64,000 nucleotides of DNA from Acidobacteriota bacterium (lineage in GTDB: Bacteria; Acidobacteriota; Terriglobia; Bryobacterales; Bryobacteraceae): NCBI GenBank assembly GCA_947470805.1, contig CANIVU010000004.1, positions 94,891 to 158,890 of the forward strand, in the 5' to 3' direction. Both the position numbers and the translations under genes were made by a program. The notes under the pieces were generated by a model, which saw only the letters and a program-made list of their open reading frames with translations, was not told the DNA's origin and did not search any database. Shown here piece by piece: positions 10,077 to 48,328 of the stretch (within the stretch, counting starts at the first letter, position 1; each line of letters begins with the position of its first letter).

Positions 10077-10820
10077 GTGAGTAGCTACCGCGAGGATCTC
10101 GCCCATATCAACGACGCCGGCTTCTCCGACTTCGCCCACGGCGCCTCCCCCGGCCTCCTCGCCCTCCTCCGCCGCGAAGGTGTAAAAAACGGTCTAGTGG
10201 TCGATCTCGGCTGCGGCAGCGGCCACTGGGCCCGAACTCTCACCGACGCCGGCTACGAAGTCCTAGGCGTCGATCTCTCCCCCGCCCAAATCCAACTCGC
10301 GAAGCAACGAGCCCCCAACGCCCGCTTCGAAACCGAGTCCCTGCTAACCGTCGCCATCCCAGCCTGCAACGCCATCACCGCCATTGGCGAGATCGTCAAC
10401 TACCAGTTCGATCCCAAACACTCCCGCGCGGCCCTGTCCCGCCTCTTCCGCCATGCCTACAAGGCCCTCCGCCCCGGCGGCGTGTTCATTTTCGACATCG
10501 CCACCCCCGCCCGCGTCCCGGCCGAAGTCCCCGCCAACTACTGGAAGGAAGGAGCCGACTGGTCGATCCACGTCGAAGTCGACGGCAACCCCGCCAGCCA
10601 CTGGCTAACCCGAAAAATAGTAACCTTCCGAAAAGGCAAGGAAGGACACTACCGTCGCAGTGAGGAAACCCACCGCCTCCGCCTCCTGGAGCCCTCGGAA
10701 ATCTCGGCGGAGCTAACGTCAATCGGCTTCCAAACGAAAGTCCAACCCAACTACGGCCGTTTCCGTCTCTACCCCGGCCTGCAAGCCTTAATCGCCCGCA
10801 AGCCCTCAGTCAATTCCTAG
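10077..10820 (+). CDS. Class I SAM-dependent methyltransferase
   Basis: VVDLGCGSGHWARTLTDAGYEVLGVDLSPAQI motif I/II; GTG start. Confidence 0.88.
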   Translation: MSSYREDLAHINDAGFSDFAHGASPGLLALLRREGVKNGLVVDLGCGSGHWARTLTDAGYEVLGVDLSPAQIQLAKQRAPNARFETESLLTVAIPACNAITAIGEIVNYQFDPKHSRAALSRLFRHAYKALRPGGVFIFDIATPARVPAEVPANYWKEGADWSIHVEVDGNPASHWLTRKIVTFRKGKEGHYRRSEETHRLRLLEPSEISAELTSIGFQTKVQPNYGRFRLYPGLQALIARKPSVNS

Positions 10821-10840
10821 GTGACTGTCACCCAGGAATT
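10812..10840. repeat. Palindromic intergenic element, copy A
   Basis: AATTCCTAGGTGAC-T-GTCACCCAGGAATT between convergent genes; one mismatch in the stem. Confidence 0.85.
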
Positions 10841-10846
10841 ATCCGG

Positions 10847-11446
10847 CTACCGCCCGCCCCGAATCAACGACAAGAACTCATCCCGCGTATCTTTCCGCTC
10901 CCGAAACTCGCCCAGCATCGAACTCGTCACCGTCGACGAATGCTGCTTCTCCACCCCGCGCATCATCATGCAAAAATGCTGCGCCTCGCAAGCCACCGCC
11001 ACACCCTTCGGCTTCAAAATATCCATCAGCGTCTGCGCAATCTCCTGCGTCATCCGCTCCTGCACCTGCAATCGCCGCGCGAAAACATCCACAATCCGCG
11101 GAATCTTGCTCAGCCCGATCACTTTCCCATTCGGGATATACGCCACATGCGCCTTCCCATAAAACGGCAGCATATGGTGCTCGCACATGCTGAAGAACTC
11201 AATGTCCTTCACGATCACCATCTCGTCGTAATCCACGGAAAACAGCGCGCCATTCACCAGCTTCGGAATGTTCTCGGTATACCCGCCGGTTAAAAACTTC
11301 AACGCCTTTTCCACGCGCTCCGGCGTGCGCTGCAGTCCTTCGCGTTCCGGGTCTTCCCCCAAACCGCTCAGTATCGCCCGGACGCTCTCGGAAATCTTGC
11401 CAGCCTGCGGAAGGGGCATCGATTGGACTACACCTTTTCTCTTCAT
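10847..11446 (-). CDS. folE: GTP cyclohydrolase I
   Basis: [21 protein letters not shown]...[59 protein letters not shown]. Confidence 0.96.
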
Positions 11447-19779: not shown

Positions 19780-21146
19780 ACCTGCTCCTCCACATCGCAA
19801 AGAAGGACCTTCGCCAATCCTGGGCCCTCCTCGCCGCCACGCTCGCTCTATTCCTCCTCACCACCTGGACACTCTCCGCGCCCCGCCAACCGCGAAGCGA
19901 GTGGGTAGACTTGGAAACCGTCGTCCTGGTGACCTGGATGATCGCCACCGGAATGCTCTGGCAACGCGAACCGCTCCCCGGCCAGCGAGCCTACTGGTTC
20001 GCCCGTCCACTCCGCTGGCAGGACTTACTCCAAGCCAAATCGATCGTCGTCGCCGTCGCCATCTTCCTCCCCATCCTCGCCACGCACGCCATCGTCGTCG
20101 CCGCCAACGGCCTCCCGGTCGCGCCGAATCTCCCCGCGCTCGCCTGGAACGCCGCCATGATCGTCGCGCTCTACATCCTGCCCGTCGCCGTTCTGGCCGC
20201 CATCACGCGCAACCTGCAGCAATTAATCCTCTGGGTCCTGGCCATCTTCGCCGCCGGCATCCTGGCGATGCAGGCCTACCCGATTGCCCCCCAAACCTTT
20301 GCGATAGCCAACACCGTCACCAACGCGCTCAACATCGTCGCCCTCCTCGCCATCCTCATCTGGCAGTACCGCACCCGCTCAACCCGCGCCGGCCGCATGG
20401 TCGTCATCGCGTTGACTCTCGTCCTCCGCGCCCTCCCCAATTGGCTACCGGAGCCCGCGTGGTTCGCGCTCCAACGCGTATTCTCGCCCGCCCACCCGAT
20501 CCAGTTCGAACTCCGCCCGGAATCCATTAACTTCCGAAACGATTTCCGCGCCGGCTTCCGCCCCCTAATCCAAATCCCCATTTCTTTCGCCGGGCTCGCC
20601 CTAGGCCAGACCGTGGAGTTCACGGGATTTCACCACACGCTGGTCACCGCCGGCGGGGAGCAAACGACGGATGCCGAAGTCCGCCGTCCACCTGGGGCCA
20701 CCGACCTCAGCGTCCTCCTGCCCAGGGAGTTCGGACGCCGTCATCAGCAACAACCCTACGACCTTTCCTTCACCGCCGAACTCACCGTCTACGAAGCGCC
20801 CCGAACGTTCTCCGTCGCCGTCGGCGAGTCCATCGATATCCCCGGCTTCGGCCGCTGCCAGAGTTGGTCCGACGGCTATCTCCGGGTCCAATGCCAGACC
20901 GTGCTCGGCACCACCGACCGCGTGGATGGACGTTGGGCCGCCAAGGACCCGGCAACGAACTCCCTGGCCGTGCTGTCCATAGCAGAAGACGGTGCCCCGT
21001 TGGCGGGGAAACTCACACCAGTCACCATCCTGCGCGGCGGCTTTCAGGCCCAGTCCGTCTACAGCAACGGCCGCATCTACATCAATCTCCGCAAACCCAT
21101 CGCCCACGTCCAGCGGCGCATCGAACTCACCGGCATCCGCGAATAA
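19776..21146 (+). CDS. ABC-2-like permease paralog 3
   Basis: MNLLLHIAKKDLRQSWALLAATLALFLL; DIPGFGRCQSWSDGYLRVQCQTVLG; RKPIAHVQRRIELTGIRE. Confidence 0.8.
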   Translation: MNLLLHIAKKDLRQSWALLAATLALFLLTTWTLSAPRQPRSEWVDLETVVLVTWMIATGMLWQREPLPGQRAYWFARPLRWQDLLQAKSIVVAVAIFLPILATHAIVVAANGLPVAPNLPALAWNAAMIVALYILPVAVLAAITRNLQQLILWVLAIFAAGILAMQAYPIAPQTFAIANTVTNALNIVALLAILIWQYRTRSTRAGRMVVIALTLVLRALPNWLPEPAWFALQRVFSPAHPIQFELRPESINFRNDFRAGFRPLIQIPISFAGLALGQTVEFTGFHHTLVTAGGEQTTDAEVRRPPGATDLSVLLPREFGRRHQQQPYDLSFTAELTVYEAPRTFSVAVGESIDIPGFGRCQSWSDGYLRVQCQTVLGTTDRVDGRWAAKDPATNSLAVLSIAEDGAPLAGKLTPVTILRGGFQAQSVYSNGRIYINLRKPIAHVQRRIELTGIRE

Positions 21147-21221
21147 ACTGCGTCCAGCACAATCCAAAGCGGGACCGCCGTGATGCCATTCGCGCGGACC
21201 CATTGGGGCAGCGCCGATCCG

Positions 21222-21620
21222 CTAATCCAGCGCTTCCGGCTTCAGCTCGATGTTCTTCTCACCGGCCGCCTTCTTCTCCATGTACTTCTTCACCCACGCG
21301 TCCCAGCTCTTGCCCGACGCCGTGTCCCGGCCCGTGAACGCCACGCCGCCGATCTCCGAATAGCGGATCTTCACCCGGTCCGTCGTCCCCGGCGGCATGA
21401 TGCGGATGTAGGAGTCGTGCAACGTCACGCCGCTCTTGCGGTCGAACAGATACCCATCCACCGTGGTACCGTCTTTCTTCGTCACCGTCACGTCGCCGCG
21501 ATAGTCGAAGGCCTTCTCTAACCCGGTGCGCAGATCCTCTTCGGTCTCCGCCGCCCAGACCTGCCCCTGCAACTCTTCGTGGGCGAAGCCAGGTGCTACT
21601 TCGAGTTCATCGGGATTCAA
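21222..21620 (-). CDS. Hypothetical protein coupled to hpnH
   Basis: MNPDELEVAPGFAHEELQGQVWAAETEEDLRTGLEKAFDYRGDVTVTKKDGTTVDGYLFDRKSG...; overlaps the end of hpnH. Confidence 0.75.
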   Translation of the reverse strand: MNPDELEVAPGFAHEELQGQVWAAETEEDLRTGLEKAFDYRGDVTVTKKDGTTVDGYLFDRKSGVTLHDSYIRIMPPGTTDRVKIRYSEIGGVAFTGRDTASGKSWDAWVKKYMEKKAAGEKNIELKPEALD

Positions 21621-22735
21621 ACCTGAACCTCGTCCTTCGCTTTCGTCTGAATCTGCACCAGCGGTCCGGCCGCCGGATGCTTGAAGTGTTTATCCAACGC
21701 CGCCATCGCGGCCTGGTCTTCGTACTTGCCGAACAGCGTCGCGCGGGCCGTGTAGAACAACCCCTTCAGCGACCCGAACGTATAATCCACCGCCGAGGCT
21801 TCGTAGCCGGAATGTACCATGCAGTTGGCGCACTTCGGATTGCCGGACTCGGTGCCGTAGTTGTCCCAGTTGGTGTCGGCCAGCAGTTCGGCGTAGGTAT
21901 CGGCGTAGCCGTCCTGCAGCAGATAGCAAGGCTTCTGCCAGCCGAAGATGTTGTACGTGGGCATGCCCCAGGGCGTGCACTTGAAGTGCTGTTTACCCAT
22001 CAGGAACTCCAGGAACAGCGGCGACATGTTGAACTGCCAGTTCGCCTTGCGGTTGGAGAGGATCGTGTTGAACAGCGTGCGCGTCCGCGCGCGGCCCAGA
22101 AAGTGGCTCTGGTCCGGCGCCTTGTCGTAGGAGTAGCCGGGCGAAACCATCATGCCCTCGACACCAGCGTCCATCATCTCATCGAAGAACGCGCGGACGG
22201 AGTTCGGGTCGGTGCCGTCGAACAGCGTGGTGTTGGTGGTGACGCGGAAGCCCTTCGCCACCGCTTCGCGAATGGCTTCGAGCGCAACGTCGTAGCCGCC
22301 TTCTTTGCAGACGGCGAAGTCGTGGTGTTCGCGCTGGCCGTCCATGTGGACGGAGAAGCTCAGGTATTTCGACGGCTTGAACAGGTGCAGCTTTTCTTTC
22401 AGCAGCAGCGCGTTCGTGCACATGTAGACGTACTTCTTGCGCGCGACCAGGCCCTCGATGATTTCGTGAATTTGCGGGTGCAACAGCGGCTCGCCGCCGG
22501 GGATGGCGATCGTGGGCGCGCCGCATTCGTCGGCGGCTTTGAAACACTGCTCCGGCGTCATGTTCTGTTTCAACACGTGCGCGGGGTACTGGATCTTGCC
22601 GCAACCGGCGCAGGCGAGATTGCAACGGAAGAGCGGTTCCAACATGAGGGTCAGCGGGTAGCGCTTTCGCCCCATCAACTTCTGCTTGATCACATAGGTC
22701 GCGACGGTCCACATCTGCGACACCGGTATGGGCAT
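21617..22735 (-). CDS. hpnH: Adenosyl-hopene transferase HpnH (radical SAM)
   Basis: MPIPVSQMWTVATYVIKQKLMGRKRYPLTLMLEPLFRCNLACAGCGKIQYP...; radical SAM CNLACAGC; characteristic HpnH N-terminus. Confidence 0.94.
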   Translation of the reverse strand: MPIPVSQMWTVATYVIKQKLMGRKRYPLTLMLEPLFRCNLACAGCGKIQYPAHVLKQNMTPEQCFKAADECGAPTIAIPGGEPLLHPQIHEIIEGLVARKKYVYMCTNALLLKEKLHLFKPSKYLSFSVHMDGQREHHDFAVCKEGGYDVALEAIREAVAKGFRVTTNTTLFDGTDPNSVRAFFDEMMDAGVEGMMVSPGYSYDKAPDQSHFLGRARTRTLFNTILSNRKANWQFNMSPLFLEFLMGKQHFKCTPWGMPTYNIFGWQKPCYLLQDGYADTYAELLADTNWDNYGTESGNPKCANCMVHSGYEASAVDYTFGSLKGLFYTARATLFGKYEDQAAMAALDKHFKHPAAGPLVQIQTKAKDEVQV

Positions 22736-22788
22736 CCCTAGTTCAATCCTTCCCGTTCGATCTTTCTATTTTCTATTATGACAGGGAC

Positions 22789-23496
22789 ATGTCCATTGCT
22801 GGCGTTCGCGCCCTCACCTTCGATGTTTTCGGAACCGTTGTGGATTGGAGAAAATCGGTCATCCACGAAGTAACGGCGATGGAACTGCCCGTTGACGCGG
22901 CGAAATTCGCAGACGAATGGCGCGCCGGGTATCAGCCGGCGATGGCCAAAGTGCGCGCGGGCGCGCTCGGGTGGACGAATATTGACGTGCTGCATCGGAT
23001 GATTCTGGACGAGCTGATCGAACGCCATTCGCTCCAAACGATGACCGAGCCGCAACGCGCCCGGCTGAACAGCGTCTGGCACCGGCTGGACCCGTGGCCG
23101 GACTCGGCGCGCGGCTTGGCGATGCTCCGGCGGCGGTACATCTGCGCGACGCTGTCGAACGGAAACGTGTCGCTGCTGGTGGATCTGGCGCGGCATGGCG
23201 GACTGACGTGGGACTGCGTGCTGTCGGGCGAGATCTACCGCGCCTACAAGCCGGACGCGGCCGTCTACCTGGGCGCGGCGGCGACGCTCGATTTGAAGCC
23301 GGAAGCAGTGATGATGGTGGCGGCGCACAAGAGCGATCTGCAGGCCGCGCGGAAGTTGGGATTGAAGACCGCTTTCGTCGAGCGGCCCTTGGAGCACGGC
23401 CCCGGCGGCAAAGCCGACCGGGGAGGAGAGGACTGGATGGATATCTACGCGAAGGACTTTGTCGACCTGGCGCGCCAACTGGGAGTGGCGGCGTGA
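22789..23496 (+). CDS. Haloacid dehalogenase type II
   Basis: VRALTFDVFGTVVDWRKSVIHEV...CATLSNGNVSLLVDLARHGGL...YKPDAAVY...[26 protein letters not shown]. Confidence 0.9.
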   Translation: MSIAGVRALTFDVFGTVVDWRKSVIHEVTAMELPVDAAKFADEWRAGYQPAMAKVRAGALGWTNIDVLHRMILDELIERHSLQTMTEPQRARLNSVWHRLDPWPDSARGLAMLRRRYICATLSNGNVSLLVDLARHGGLTWDCVLSGEIYRAYKPDAAVYLGAAATLDLKPEAVMMVAAHKSDLQAARKLGLKTAFVERPLEHGPGGKADRGGEDWMDIYAKDFVDLARQLGVAA

Positions 23497-24674
23497 ACCG
23501 GCGTCTGTTTTTACGGTACCTGCAGCAGTCGCCGCTTCTGGCGCTGGCGGCGGAGTTGGGCGGCCAGCCCGCCCGCAAGGCGCTGGCGTCGCCGAAGGAC
23601 GCGCTCGACATCTTTGACTTTCTGCCGCTGGCGGAAAAGAACGTGCAGTCGCAGCACTGGGCGTACCTGATGGGCGGCGCCGATGACGACGGCACGGTGC
23701 GCGCCAACGAGAACGCCTATTCGCAGTGGCAGATCCGCGCGCGGCGGCAGGTGGAGGTGGACAAGATCGACACCTCCGTCGAGCTGTTCGGCCAGAAGCA
23801 CGCCTACCCGATTTGGGTGGCGCCAGCCGCGGCTCACCAGGCGTTTCACGCAGAAGGGGAAGTGGCCACGGCGCGCGGGGCGGCGGCGCGGAAGGCGCAG
23901 ATGATTTTATCCACCAACGCGTCGCTGCACGTGCGCGAGGTGGCGCCGGCGTTTGGTTCTCCGCTTTGGTATCAGCTCTACACGCAGGCGGAGTTTGAAG
24001 TGTCCAAGCGCCTCGTCGGCGCGGCGGAGCAGGCGGGGTGCACGGTGCTCGCGATCACGGTCGATTCGGCGACGACCTCCAACCGCGTGACCGCCAACCG
24101 CGCCGGCGTGAAGACGGAGGCGCGGTGCCGGGCGTGCCATGGAACGACGCAGGCCGATTACTACAAAGAGCACGGGATGTACGAGGGCATCGACCCGGCG
24201 TTCGCCAAGCCCGGCGGCCGCGCGGTGACTTGGACGTTGGTGGAGCGGCTGCGCGCGGTGACCAAGATGAAGATTGTCATCAAGGGCATTATGACCGCCG
24301 AGGACGCGGCGAACTGCCTGCGGAATGGCGCGGATGGCATCATCGTCTCCAACCATGGCGGGCGGAGCGAGAACAGCTTGCAGGGCACGCTGGAGGCGCT
24401 GCCGGAGATTGTGGAGACGATCAACGGGCGGATTCCGGTGATGATCGATGGCGGCGTGCGGCGCGGCACGGATGTGTTCAAGGCGCTGGCGCTGGGGGCG
24501 AGCGCGGTGGGCATAGGACGGCCGTACATCTGGGGCCTGAGCGCTTTCGGGGCGGCGGGAGTGGAGCGGGTGTTGGAGTTAATCCAGACCGAGTTCGCGA
24601 TCACAATGAAGCTGGCGGGGAAGCAGGCGGCGCGGCACATTTCCCCTCTGGACGTGCGGCGTAGGACTATATAG
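23493..24674 (+). CDS. FMN-dependent alpha-hydroxy-acid oxidizing protein with N-terminal export-like signal and CxxCH
   Basis: MNRRLFLRYLQQSPLLALAA...; VITVDS-like barrel, KGIMTAEDAANCLRNGADGIIVSNHGGR, PVMIDGGVRRGTDVFKALALGASAVGIGRP; CRACH. GTG start overlaps the upstream stop. Confidence 0.9.
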   Translation: MNRRLFLRYLQQSPLLALAAELGGQPARKALASPKDALDIFDFLPLAEKNVQSQHWAYLMGGADDDGTVRANENAYSQWQIRARRQVEVDKIDTSVELFGQKHAYPIWVAPAAAHQAFHAEGEVATARGAAARKAQMILSTNASLHVREVAPAFGSPLWYQLYTQAEFEVSKRLVGAAEQAGCTVLAITVDSATTSNRVTANRAGVKTEARCRACHGTTQADYYKEHGMYEGIDPAFAKPGGRAVTWTLVERLRAVTKMKIVIKGIMTAEDAANCLRNGADGIIVSNHGGRSENSLQGTLEALPEIVETINGRIPVMIDGGVRRGTDVFKALALGASAVGIGRPYIWGLSAFGAAGVERVLELIQTEFAITMKLAGKQAARHISPLDVRRRTI

Positions 24675-27523: not shown

Positions 27524-27847
27524 TTAGCGTTCTTCGAGGGCGGATTGGGTGATTTGGGCTTGGGCGTTGACGGTGAGGGTGATGATCAGGAGAGTCTGGG
27601 CTTTGGGGATCTTCGGCGGGTCTTTCCAGATATACAGAGACCGGCCGGCGGAGCCGTTGACGATTTCATTGGGCGGGCCGAAGCGCGCCTCGGCCTTTTG
27701 GACGGATTGGCCATCCCAGGCGTTCAGGAGGGCTTGGACGCGGCGGTTGCGGTACTGACGGCGCCAGTCGACCGTGGCTTCGCGGGCGAAGAGCCAGAAG
27801 CCGAGCACGGTCAGCGATACGAAAAAGAATATGACTTCAAATACCAA
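27524..27847 (-). CDS. Hypothetical membrane-anchored protein (start uncertain)
   Basis: VFEVIFFFVSLTVLGFWLFAREATVDWRRQYRNRRVQALLNAWDGQSVQKAEARFGPPNEIVNGSAGRSLYIWKD. Confidence 0.7.
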   Translation of the reverse strand: MVFEVIFFFVSLTVLGFWLFAREATVDWRRQYRNRRVQALLNAWDGQSVQKAEARFGPPNEIVNGSAGRSLYIWKDPPKIPKAQTLLIITLTVNAQAQITQSALEER

Positions 27848-27895
27848 AGGCGAACTCTATTCTACCGATGACGGTAGGACGGAGTTCGCCTTTGG
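27844..27895. other. Long hairpin CCAAAGGCGAACTC...GAGTTCGCCTTTGG
   Basis: 14-bp perfect outer arms (27844-27857 / 27882-27895), inner TACCG-ATGA-CGGTA; T-tract on the + strand after the 3' arm. Confidence 0.85.
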
Positions 27896-27910
27896 ATTTT
27901 TTTGACTGTG

Positions 27911-39435: not shown

Positions 39436-40254
39436 ATGATCAGCGCCCTGTTGTTCGCAGGTCTGGCCATGCAGGTGGGGCAGACACCCACGCCGCAGAA
39501 CCCATCGCCACAGAACCCTTCTCCCATGACGGAGGCTACCCGGACGCATGACCGGGTGGTGCAGCACCGAGTCGCGACGGGGAGGCGGAAGGGGCGGGTG
39601 CTGATTGTTGGTCATCCGGGGCCAACGTCGCCGGTGATTCTGCATTTTCATGGGGACACGTGGTTGCCGGAGCAGGCGATCGCAGGGGTGTTTCCGGATG
39701 TGACGATTGTGTCGTTGTATCTGGGTTCGATCTCCGATAATTACCAGGACGCGTATAAGACGCCGGAGGCGTTTCAGGCTTTGTTAACGGAGGCCGGGGC
39801 GGGGCGGCGGCCGGTGTATTTGAGTGCGTTTAGTGCGGGGTATGGGGCGGTGCGGGCGATATTGAAGCATTCGTACCGGCGGATTGATACGGTGCTTTTG
39901 ATGGATGGGTTGCACTCGGACTATCTGGGGAAAGAGATCGATCCGGTGGGGTTGGATGTGTTTTTGCAGTTTGCGCGGGATGCATCCTTGGGGCGGAAGC
40001 GGATGCTGATTACGCATTCTGAGGTGTATCCGGGGACGTTTCCGAGTACGACGGAGACGACGGATTGGTTGCTGAAGCAGTTGAAGTTGAAGCGGATGCC
40101 GGTGTTGCGGTGGGGGCCGGTGGGGATGCAGCAGCTATCGGATGCGCGGCGGGGGCGGTTGGTGGTGATGGGGTTTGCGGGGAATAGTGCGCCGGACCAT
40201 GTGGACCATTTGCACGGGATGAGTACGTGGTTGCGGGCTTTGCGGCGGATTTAG
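39436..40254 (+). CDS. Alpha/beta-hydrolase-like secreted protein
   Basis: VILHFHGDTWLPEQAI; VYLSAFSAGYGAVRAIL; N-terminal signal and Pro-rich linker. Confidence 0.65.
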   Translation: MISALLFAGLAMQVGQTPTPQNPSPQNPSPMTEATRTHDRVVQHRVATGRRKGRVLIVGHPGPTSPVILHFHGDTWLPEQAIAGVFPDVTIVSLYLGSISDNYQDAYKTPEAFQALLTEAGAGRRPVYLSAFSAGYGAVRAILKHSYRRIDTVLLMDGLHSDYLGKEIDPVGLDVFLQFARDASLGRKRMLITHSEVYPGTFPSTTETTDWLLKQLKLKRMPVLRWGPVGMQQLSDARRGRLVVMGFAGNSAPDHVDHLHGMSTWLRALRRI

Positions 40255-40297: not shown

Positions 40298-40342
40298 CCT
40301 CAGACAATTCCTTGGTGACAGTCACCAAGGAATTGTCTGAGG
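40298..40342. repeat. Palindromic intergenic element, copy B (22-bp perfect arms)
   Basis: CCTCAGACAATTCCTTGGTGAC-A-GTCACCAAGGAATTGTCTGAGG. Confidence 0.95.
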
Positions 40343-40349
40343 CGGGTGG

Positions 40350-41195
40350 TTAAACGGTGATGCAGGGGTTGGAGAGCGTGCCGATGCCGCTCGTCGTGAT
40401 GGTTACCACGTCGCCGGGGGCGAGCGCGGACTCTTGCGTCACGATGATGCCCGTGCCGGTCAGAACTACCGAGCCGCAGGGGACGGGGTTCGACTGGAGC
40501 AAGTATTCCACCAGGGTTTCGATCTTGCGGCCGAGCTTGCCGGTGGAGGTCGAGCCTTCGAACGTCGTCGTGTCGCCGCGCTTGATGACGCAGGTCATTT
40601 CGAGCGAGTAAGGGTCGGGGATCTCATCGGCGGTCACCATGACCGGGCCGAGCGAGCAGCAGGCCGTGTAGACCTTCGACTGGGGCAGGTAGAGCGGGTT
40701 TTCCCGTTCAATGTCCCACGCCGAAACGTCGTTGGCGATCGTATAGCCAACCACGCGGCCCTTGCTGCCGAGGACGACGGCGAGTTCCGGTTCGGGCGCG
40801 GTGAAGACCGAATCCGAACGGATGCCGACACCCTGGTCGGGGCCGACGCAGACGCGGGCCGTGCCCTTGAAGAAGATCTCGGGACGGTTGGCCGGGTTGT
40901 AGACGTAGGCGTAGAAGCCTTCGCGGGTGTTGTGTTCCCCGTCGCGGAAGCTGGCGCTCATCTCATACGTACAGCCGCAGGCCCAGACTTCTTTGGGCGC
41001 GAGCGGGATGAGCGGCGTAGCCGGGGCGGCGTTGGAGGAGGCCATGGACTTGGCCAGCTTGGGCAGGTCCGTGTTCTCCACTTCCGAGCGGCGGATGAGG
41101 TCATAAAGCGTATGACCGGGGATCGGGCGGGCGTTCCCGTTTTCAAAGATCGCCGCCGTAACTTCGTTATTCCACTTAATTTGTCCGAGTCGCAT
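40350..41195 (-). CDS. Fumarylacetoacetate hydrolase-fold protein (possibly 2-keto-3-deoxy-pentonate dehydratase-like)
   Basis: EVWACGCTYEMSASFR...RPEIFFKGTARVCVGPDQGVGIRSDSVFTAPEPELAVVLGSKGRVVGYTIANDVSAWDIERENPLYLPQSK; FAH-family core. Confidence 0.85.
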   Translation of the reverse strand: MRLGQIKWNNEVTAAIFENGNARPIPGHTLYDLIRRSEVENTDLPKLAKSMASSNAAPATPLIPLAPKEVWACGCTYEMSASFRDGEHNTREGFYAYVYNPANRPEIFFKGTARVCVGPDQGVGIRSDSVFTAPEPELAVVLGSKGRVVGYTIANDVSAWDIERENPLYLPQSKVYTACCSLGPVMVTADEIPDPYSLEMTCVIKRGDTTTFEGSTSTGKLGRKIETLVEYLLQSNPVPCGSVVLTGTGIIVTQESALAPGDVVTITTSGIGTLSNPCITV

Positions 41196-46123: not shown

Positions 46124-47188
46124 ATGGGACAACGCGCTCAGCCTACTTTACTTGGACTTGATGTCCCCGACCTGCTGGAACTGCTGGGCGAGGGAGCGCG
46201 GCCCTATCGTGCCCGCCAGATATATGATGCATTGTATCGCCGGAACGTTGCTGATCTGGACGAGCAGACGGCGTTGCCGAAGGAGTTACGGGACCAACTG
46301 CGGAGCCGGATGCCGCACGGGCGGCTGGAGGTAGACCAGCGGTTTGACTCGGCCGACGGGACGACTCGGTACCTGTTGAAACTGCCGGACGATGGGCGGA
46401 GCGTGGAGACGGTTTTGATGCCGCAGGACGACCGGCACACGATTTGCATTTCGTCGCAGGTGGGTTGTCCGGTGGATTGCAAGTTCTGTTTGACGGCGCA
46501 GATGGGGCTGGAGCGGAGCCTGAGCGCGGGCGAGATTGTGGGCCAGGTGCTGCATGTTTGCAAAGAGCATGGGCTGGACCCGCGGGCCGAGCACGTCAAC
46601 ATTGTGATGATGGGTATGGGCGAACCGCTGTTGAACCTGCCGAATGTTTTAAAGGCCACGCGGATTCTGTGCGATGCGCATGGGGTGGGTTTTTCGCAGC
46701 GGCGGATCACGGTGTCGACATCGGGGATTGTGCCGAAGATTGCGGAGTTGGGGGCGGCGGAGGTGCGGCCGCATCTGGCGATTTCGTTGAATGCTTCGCA
46801 CGAGGAGCAGCGGCGGGAATTGATGCCGATTACGAAGAAGTATCACCTGGCCGATTTGATGGAGGCTTGTAAAGCCTTTCCGTTGCGGCCTAGGGAGTTT
46901 TTGTTTTTTGAGTATGTGATGCTGCGCGGGGTGAACGATACCGATGCCGATGCGCGGCGGGTGGTGGCGCTGTTGGCCAACATGCGGGCGAAGGTGAATA
47001 TTATTGCGCTGAACCCGGGGCCGGGGATTCCGTTCCAGACGCCGGATCCGGAGCGGGTGGCGAGTTTCCAGAAGATTGTGATGAAGTCGATGCCGTGTTA
47101 TGTGCGGCGGCCGCGGGGGTTGGATATTTATGCGGCGTGCGGGCAGTTGAAGAAGATGCAGACGGAGGATCTGGTTACGATCCAATGA
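46124..47188 (+). CDS. rlmN: 23S rRNA (adenine(2503)-C(2))-methyltransferase RlmN
   Basis: [36 protein letters not shown]...[20 protein letters not shown]...[14 protein letters not shown]. Confidence 0.96.
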
Positions 47189-47496
47189 GCGCGCGTCTGG
47201 TGGTGGGGAATGTGTTGATGTGGGCCGGGGCGGTGCTGGGCTTGCCGTCTTTGGTGGCGAGTGTTTATTTCGGGATCGATGTGGTGAAGCAGTGGATGGC
47301 TCCGGCGGCGGCGGTGCGGCCGGCGCTGGATGCGAACGCGCATCCGATTGAGGTGGTGGCGCGGGGTGCGACGGTGGTGGGGAATGCGCTGTTGAGCGTG
47401 GGCGATGGGATCGTACGGGGGCTGTTTGTGGTGGCGCTCTGTATCTTCGGCGTGGCGTTGGTGCTGTTTTTTGTGGGGCGGCGGCTGCGCGCTTAA
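47185..47496 (+). CDS. Hypothetical membrane protein
   Basis: [34 protein letters not shown]...; ATGA overlap with rlmN. Confidence 0.7.
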
Positions 47497-47499
47497 GCT

Positions 47500-47538
47500 C
47501 AGACAATTCCTGGGTGACAGTCACCCAGGAATTGTCTG
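47500..47538. repeat. Palindromic intergenic element, copy C (19-bp perfect arms)
   Basis: CAGACAATTCCTGGGTGAC-A-GTCACCCAGGAATTGTCTG. Confidence 0.95.
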
Positions 47539-47542
47539 GGGG

Positions 47543-48328
47543 TTATTTGGGGAGATTCATGACCCATTTGGTGGCTTCGAGCCACATTTTCTGGACTTGC
47601 GGGAGTTCCCAGATCTCTGAACGGTGGCCGAGGGTGGAGACGAAGACGCGGCCGCGGCCGTAGTTGCGTACCCAGCTTACGGCGAAGTCGCGGTCGGTGC
47701 GACGGACGTTTTTGTTGGTGAGGTCGACGCTGTCGGCGTCGAGGCGCATGAGGACGCGGACGCGGTCGCGGGAGTAGTTCTTCAGCTGGTAGATTTCGTC
47801 GAAGAGGAAGAAATCGGGCGGGAAGTGGGCGGTGGCGGGGTGCTTGGGATCTTCGTTGATGATCTTGGCTTTGATCTGATTCCAGGGGTGCAGGTCGAAG
47901 TAGCCGCCGACCAGTTCGCCGTATTCGGGCCAGGTGTAGAGCGTGTCGACGCCGCTGTGGGCGGCCATGAAACCCTTGCCTTCGGTGCGGACGAATTCGA
48001 GAAGCGCCTGTTTTTGCTCGTCGTCCAGGTCGAGTTCGCCGGAGGTGTAGAAGAAGATGGCGTCGAAGTAGTCGAGGTTTTTGGCGTTGGCGCCGAGCTT
48101 CTTTTTGGTGATCAGCTGGGTGTCGGTGCGGATGTAGGTGTCCCAGAGGCCGGTCTCTTTGCCGATTTTCCATAACGTGGCGAGGCCGTCGGAGGTGGAA
48201 TCGTGCTGGAAGCCTTTGGTTTGGCCGATGGCGAGGAGCTTCTTGCGTTTAGGGGCCTGCGGGGGCTGTTGGGCGCTGGCCAGGGTGGCGAGCAGGAGGG
48301 CGGCGAGGAGAAGGCGGATCGGGCGCAT
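47543..48328 (-). CDS. ThuA domain-containing secreted protein
   Basis: KKLLAIGQTKGFQHDSTSDGLATLWKIGKETGLWDTYIRTD...GKGFMAAHSGVDTLYTWPEYGELVGGYFDLHPWNQ. Confidence 0.92.
   Translation of the reverse strand: MRPIRLLLAALLLATLASAQQPPQAPKRKKLLAIGQTKGFQHDSTSDGLATLWKIGKETGLWDTYIRTDTQLITKKKLGANAKNLDYFDAIFFYTSGELDLDDEQKQALLEFVRTEGKGFMAAHSGVDTLYTWPEYGELVGGYFDLHPWNQIKAKIINEDPKHPATAHFPPDFFLFDEIYQLKNYSRDRVRVLMRLDADSVDLTNKNVRRTDRDFAVSWVRNYGRGRVFVSTLGHRSEIWELPQVQKMWLEATKWVMNLPK

Follow-up and report, generated by a model that had tools for sequence, protein, structure and literature searches.

The perfect palindrome at positions 40298-40342 belongs to a family of short palindromes dispersed through its own genome and two related ones. 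Judged from the sequences, this palindrome is very probably (we estimate about 86%) a REP, that is, a non-autonomous element of ~41 bp that would be mobilised in trans by a resident HUH/Y1 RAYT transposase of the TnpA_REP-like kind, here without a GTAG tag and without BIME/REPIN pairing. We base this reading on the copy number relative to controls, the restriction of the family to three genomes, a RAYT gene lying between copies, orthologous sites that are empty, covariation of the arms, a polarity that follows GC skew, and the docking of copies on stop codons.

The palindrome and its sister copies in the window

The window analysed here is a stretch of 64,000 nucleotides (G000:C4:94891-158890) from a genome of 8.7 Mb in 220 contigs (G000), in the genus of Candidatus Sulfopaludibacter. 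The palindrome, copy B, reads CCTCAGACAATTCCTTGGTGAC-A-GTCACCAAGGAATTGTCTGAGG, with 22-nt arms that are 100% complementary around a single-base centre; its sequence, its coordinates and the perfect 22-bp arms had been given in a preliminary description and were exact on recheck. Folded as single-stranded DNA it reached -23.8 kcal/mol (z -10.9). At up to three mismatches the window held three copies (Table 1), and dinucleotide shuffles of it held none. The exchange of a T-A pair in copy B for a G-C pair in copy C, which had been described as compensatory, is real. The related genome G004 carries orthologs of copy A (L179) and of copy C (L168), the latter ~19 bp nearer the ThuA gene. The reported absence of a U-tract holds for both sides of copy B, and the stem of copy C is followed by just GGGGGTTATTT, so that the hairpin followed by a U-tract that characterises an intrinsic terminator was found at neither copy. 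Next to an H+-pyrophosphatase gene elsewhere in the window (27839-27900) there is an inverted repeat that lies outside the palindrome family; it is imperfect (29 nt, 83%) and has a loop of 4 nt.

Table 1. Palindrome copies of the window with their neighbouring genes, and copies hit by a second palindrome. Distances are from the gene's stop to the palindrome centre.
Feature	Position	Strand	Remarks
Methyltransferase-domain gene	10077..10820	+	stop inside copy A, 5 bases from centre
Copy A	10806..10846	.	decayed, 15/20 pairs; centre T on + (C-rich) strand
GTP cyclohydrolase I gene	10847..11314	-	PF01227 7.6e-67; stop abuts copy A, 20 bases from centre
Gene without Pfam family, left of copy B, convergent	39436..40254	+	stop 65 bases from centre
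Copy B	40298..40342	.	perfect 22-bp arms around one base; probable REP, AATTCC subfamily; centre A on + (G-rich) strand
Fumarylacetoacetate hydrolase-family (FAA hydrolase) gene, right of copy B, convergent	40350..41195	-	PF01557 5.7e-25; stop 29 bases from centre
Small gene left of copy C, convergent, after radical-SAM gene	47185..47496	+	stop 22 bases from centre
Copy C	47499..47539	.	19-bp perfect core arms; AATTCC subfamily; G-C instead of T-A pair; centre A on + (G-rich) strand
ThuA-domain gene right of copy C, convergent	47543..48328	-	PF06283 6.9e-41; stop 23 bases from centre
Copy hit by second palindrome	L118:2483-2590		
Copy hit by second palindrome	L126:2489-2600		
Copy hit by second palindrome	L171 (G004 site B)		
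Copy hit by second palindrome	L131:2458-2580		

A dispersed family restricted to three genomes

Searching G000 with a 35-bp pattern at up to three mismatches returned 52 places, against 0 for the reversed-pattern control, and a 21-bp core returned 82 matches against 10 for its control. A covariance model built from 27 copies recognised at least 71 sites (142 strand-matches), a lower bound since no more than 150 candidates were scored, and overall we count about 70-80 copies. The same model found ~35 sites in G004 (MAG 'Acidobacteria bacterium isolate RE-9nov16-96') and 6 in G010 (MAG 'Candidatus Sulfopaludibacter sp. SbA3 isolate MaE-04nov19-199'). The search for further copies in this genome and its relatives, proposed in the preliminary description, turned up the same family here and in two congeners. 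The palindrome was not found in 38 other relatives, which leaves 3 carriers among 41, nor, with stricter filters, in 395 other genomes sampled across the phylum (1 of 396 positive), and an Rfam search matched it to no family.

Written with T at the centre, the family consensus is CCAGACAAWTCCTNGGTGAC-T-GTCACCNAGGAWTTGTCYGR, an element of ~41 bp. The family falls mainly into two subfamilies, AATTCC and AAATCC, and the arms match within each. The core GGTGACWGTCACC was nearly invariant across the 69 copies with an intact centre, an invariance that is partly imposed by the search model. A short palindrome with many dispersed copies per genome is what the term REP denotes in its broad sense. The tetranucleotide that marks GTAG-class REPs at the 5' foot is not conserved in these 69 copies: on the two strands, 0 and 5 of them had GTAG close to the foot and 0 and 8 had GTGG; a CRGA foot was present in 44 and 51. 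Copies were single nearly throughout and did not form BIME or REPIN pairs, the exceptions being the RAYT locus and one 123-bp pair in G004.

A RAYT gene flanked by palindrome copies

Outside the window, G000 carries a gene (from G000:C13:82727 onward) whose PF01797 match at G000:C13:82769-83092 (4.7e-9) is flanked by palindromes at C13:82651 and C13:83283. Its open reading frame starts 36 bp past the first palindrome, runs in frame through the second, and contains the motifs HYH and EYSAYKN, in agreement with the HUH and tyrosine motifs of a RAYT/TnpA_REP protein. The ortholog in G004 (C40:1457-1783) is likewise flanked by palindromes (C40:1226 and C40:1858), so that a cognate RAYT sits between copies in two genomes. 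The two copies beside the RAYT are near-symmetric, with the same orientation by their centre base and opposite orientations by their TAG/CTA ends; in a classical REPtron the two REPs are inverted. When a profile of the RAYT family was compared with the PDB, the best match was 4er8 'TnpArep' (1.8e-8), ahead of other transposase entries; a phmmer search of the PDB with the single RAYT sequence gave no match. Purifying selection acts on the gene (dN/dS 0.07), although its dS is 1.40 against 0.26 for its moaA-like neighbour.

RAYTs of at least 53% identity occurred only in the three palindrome-carrying genomes. The RAYTs of G000 C13, G004 C40 and G000 C20 formed one clade with 100/100 support in a tree from which the broken G010 copy was left out. 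At the same moaA-like locus G010 has a different RAYT (L194, G010:C731), interrupted by an internal TAG and flanked by different repeats, and the related C20 RAYT of G000 (L218:1380-2150; PF01797, same clade) has its own GTAG-containing flanking repeat. The repeat beside these two sister RAYTs, GGTAGCACGGCTCC/GGTAGCACGGCCC, also occurs in further scattered copies, 4 of them within the 416 kb of loci. Genome G023 has a more distant RAYT (46%; L196/L256, G023:C122:3998-4033) with another perfect 20-bp palindrome, GTGCTCTGGCTACNAAT..., 40 bp upstream; 6 copies of that palindrome are dispersed in G023, and G000 and G004 have none. This suggests that each RAYT is paired with its own palindrome. Against the REP reading stand the missing conserved GTAG/GTGG tag, the mostly single copies, the shared centre orientation of the two copies beside the RAYT, which differs from the inverted arrangement of classical REPtrons, and the other repeats that flank the C20 RAYT.

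Orthologous junctions without the palindrome

The flanks of 16 G000 copies were searched in G004 and G010 for orthologous junctions, and palindrome-free junctions were found in these congeners. The palindrome is therefore an insertion. The cleanest empty site is L063, where the sequence is GGCTC^AGTAC (GGCTCAGTAC) in G010 and longer by 41 bp in G000. Read along the right-hand gene's strand, TACT-GAG has become TACT-(AACCAGAC...GTCT)-GAG, which turns TGA into TAA and leaves CT at both junctions. Five further junctions (L089, L088, L091, L068 and L075) were also palindrome-free in a congener, with small local changes and less exact ends. Clean empty sites are few and most junctions have small indels, so the exact ends of the element come mainly from L063. 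At the convergent junction L068 (G000:C103:4021) the palindrome's place is taken in the G004 ortholog (L226) by another inverted repeat, AAAAGGGGGAGCGGTCAGCTCCCCCCTTT, possibly an ordinary terminator. Together with the RAYT gene between copies, the empty sites support the 'REP-like mobile palindrome' that had been named as one of two explanations, and the RAYT gene answers the earlier call for a RAYT/TnpA-REP transposase.

Near-perfect inverted repeats, and two longer copies of ~71 bp (L118 and L126), might also point to a MITE of a conventional DDE transposon, with its two inverted repeats fused. We consider this extremely unlikely, because at L063 the target is not duplicated, except for a CT that may be shared, and because in L118 and L126 a second, unrelated palindrome breaks up an otherwise normal copy. 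Searches aimed at other features came across no related full-length DDE element. This second palindrome, approximately CCGAAGCC(C)NNN(G)GGCGAAGG, interrupts or truncates four copies near their centre (Table 1). L118 and L131 have intact orthologs in G004, and the insertion at site B, the site of copy B, is in G004. The second palindrome had 7 strict matches in the 416 kb of loci, and its hits in copies look far above chance; it looks as if one REP-like element lands in the hairpin of another.

Gene context and docking on stop codons

Genome-wide statistics on context and orientation rest on the fetched palindrome loci (416 kb), in which genes were called with a home-made two-class codon model that was trained on these loci and checked on the window. 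Both the window and the loci have a very strong strand asymmetry, with C-ending codons in genes of the C-rich strand and G-ending codons in genes of the G-rich strand; it is so strong that many genes escape a one-class codon model.

Of the 69 intact-centre copies, 37 were convergent, 26 tandem and 4 divergent; of the other two, one was called within a weak ORF and one was unresolved. The preliminary description had placed three of three copies between convergent genes, which our gene calls bear out within the window but which does not extend to the genome as a whole. Nevertheless, convergent junctions were clearly enriched when compared with those of the window (37/69 vs 10/65, p=4e-6), and 67 of the 69 copies lay in called intergenic spaces, mainly at gene 3' ends, as is typical of REPs. 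Among the 103 genes that point at a copy, 76 ended within 35 bases of its centre, and 45 stopped within 20 bases, where the stop falls in the palindrome or abuts it; the distances peak at 1, 17 and 20. Class-A genes docked at 17 or 20 had a C before the stop in 21/23 cases, against 56/128 elsewhere (p=1.9e-5), so that the junction is often C-TAA or C-TAG. Such docking is as expected if the palindrome inserts after a CT dinucleotide.

The other explanation offered earlier was a bidirectional intrinsic terminator, to which one may add a hairpin that protects mRNA 3' ends; in either case selection would act on the RNA at convergent junctions. The enrichment of convergent junctions and the closeness of gene ends would suit such a role, as would the very stable RNA hairpins (~-37 kcal/mol), the paired arm changes and the other inverted repeat that G004 has at L068, and mRNA-level roles have been proposed for REPs (PMC3733652). 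We nonetheless regard it as unlikely, given that copy B has no U-tract, that the stem starts at or in the stop codon and would presumably be covered by a ribosome terminating there, and that absence from most relatives would be odd for a core termination signal. The orientation and the divergence of the copies, described below, also speak against it. An effect of the palindrome on mRNA or transcript ends is possible.

Orientation follows GC skew

In 61 of the 69 copies (61:8, p=9e-11), 32 of the 37 convergent ones among them, the G-rich strand had A as its centre base and the C-rich strand had T. This polarity is opposite to base composition, as T outnumbers A on the G-rich strand. In G004 and G010 the ratios were 30:3 and 6:1, partly at the same sites as in G000. 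Among the tandem copies, the A-strand was the mRNA strand in 12 and antisense in 14, which gives no link to transcription. Since orientation tracks GC skew and not transcription, a single-stranded DNA hairpin handled at replication fits better than an RNA terminator. In line with this, single-strand transposases that act at replication forks can yield a replication-linked polarity (PMC6006769).

Two other readings of orientation were set aside. Orientation from the ends alone (41:8, with 20 ambiguous) was no better than the centre base, and the wobble asymmetry (A.C 68 and G.T 13 on the C-rich strand) does not prove an active G-rich strand, as composition alone predicts ~1.5:1 and mutational skew would be expected to produce part of the bias. 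The wobble bias of the inner pairs (37:9, p=0.004) lends weak support to an active G-rich strand. Cues to the lagging-strand template conflict: the ribosomal operon has an excess of G and T at fourfold sites of the gene strand, yet the C-rich strand has the larger share of the coding DNA, so that ribosomal-protein genes point one way and overall gene orientation the other. Within the window the GC skew switches abruptly at 21000-24000, from about -0.3 to +0.3, and the flanking genes mostly point toward the switch. It could be a replication terminus, an origin or an inversion breakpoint; a Pfam search of nearby genes revealed no replication genes.

Paired arm changes and turnover of copies

The covariation check proposed for the arms gave a strong signal across the family. 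We counted 59 double-changed cells on 62 distinct copies, compared with 34.7 +/- 4.0 in shuffles (0/500 as high) and at most 19 with slid partners, bearing in mind that amplification of subfamilies inflates such counts. Among 29 pairs of orthologous copies (one from G000, the other from G004 or G010) there were 11 both-sided changes from one Watson-Crick pair to another. The orthologous copies had diverged by 8.7%, compared with 8.4% for their mostly coding flanks. Taken together, paired arm changes and a divergence equal to that of the flanks mean that the palindromic form is maintained or renewed without conservation of the individual copies, which fits a hairpin substrate with turnover. Template-switch correction between the arms could be an additional source of paired changes. 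As compensatory changes are expected of a DNA hairpin too, selection on an RNA hairpin is not required to account for them; with no U-tract, an orientation set by GC skew and copies that diverge like their flanks, the terminator proposed earlier is unneeded.

The near-invariant core and the chromosome-strand polarity could also be taken to indicate a double-stranded site for a dimeric DNA-binding protein of the nucleoid, partition or repressor type. Such a site would have no need of arm covariation, yet pairs 7 and 12 from the centre show joint base changes in the two arms; being near-symmetric, it would give no cause for strand orientation, and part of the core invariance comes from the search model. 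With a patchy occurrence in one genus and a RAYT between copies as well, we find this explanation very unlikely.

A possible mechanism of insertion

Returning to the REP reading, the RAYT would bind the hairpin while the strand that carries it is single-stranded at the replication fork, and would cut and rejoin after CT, so that copies would insert after CT in the target. Cleavage at CT is what we infer from the CT at both L063 junctions and the C before docked stops. C-TAA and C-TAG at gene ends would then be CT sites where insertion spares the protein, and CT targeting combined with selection against insertion into genes and promoters would give the pattern of 3' ends and convergent junctions. 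In its fullest form the proposal is tentative, and we hold it at somewhat less than even odds: the RAYT would cut after CT on one strand at the fork and insert the hairpin at C-T/AA or C-T/AG with the stop restored or kept, which would make insertion safe for the protein and fix polarity to the direction of replication, and the hairpins would afterwards serve as landing sites for the second palindromic element.

Comparison with known systems

Among REP families whose cognate RAYT has been identified, those of gammaproteobacteria have been studied best. The GTAG REPs of E. coli and Pseudomonas resemble the present family in being intergenic and mainly convergent or tandem, in ends that often supply the stop, and in paired stem changes (PMC3733652, PMC2817692); that REPs lie at convergent and tandem 3' ends and supply stop codons was already known (PMC3733652). 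They differ in having GTAG, often bulged stems, and BIME/REPIN arrays, all three of which are missing here. What sets the present family apart from known REPs is the missing GTAG, the missing arrays and the long perfect stem.

Going by published descriptions, the nearest relative of the present family may be the class 3 TnpA_Y1 of Solibacter usitatus, a bacterium that we take to be of the same family (Solibacteraceae) as the present genome. Both are acidobacterial and have a 5' foot other than GTAG (CnGA there, CRGA here), while the class 3 proteins are reported with a Y----Q motif and the present RAYT has EYSAYKN, with N and not Q. Class 3 TnpA_Y1 genes with flanking structures, which were called atypical, occur in Planctomycetes, Acidobacteria and Proteobacteria and are characterised by the Y----Q motif and the CnGA foot, and S. 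usitatus has a high copy number of ~600 class 3 structures (PMC6006769). The TIRYT elements of Acidobacteria are similar in that tyrosine transposases are flanked by inverted repeats, some families of which are dispersed (Koribacter ORF1552) (PMC3733652); going by their descriptions, they come from other genera and have other repeats.

Work with purified proteins has shown that TnpA_REP cleaves REPs at CT when they are single-stranded, and that in group 3 the palindromes used are perfect (PMC8266576). The group 3 REPs of Stenotrophomonas maltophilia (REPtron Sm) are, like ours, short, dispersed, intergenic palindromes with a perfect stem and a cognate Y1/HUH transposase beside copies. Cleavage after CT was shown for the protein studied there (PMC8266576) and would be the predicted activity of the present RAYT. 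REP_Sm has an 8-bp stem and a 3-nt loop, compared with a stem of 18-20 bp and a one-base centre here, in another phylum and without GTAG. An acidobacterial family with no GTAG, a long near-perfect stem, and both filled and empty sites in close genomes allows insertion target, polarity and turnover to be read directly. Cleavage at CT, matching the docking at C-TAA and C-TAG, would provide a testable reason why REPs lie at gene 3' ends that calls for no RNA function.
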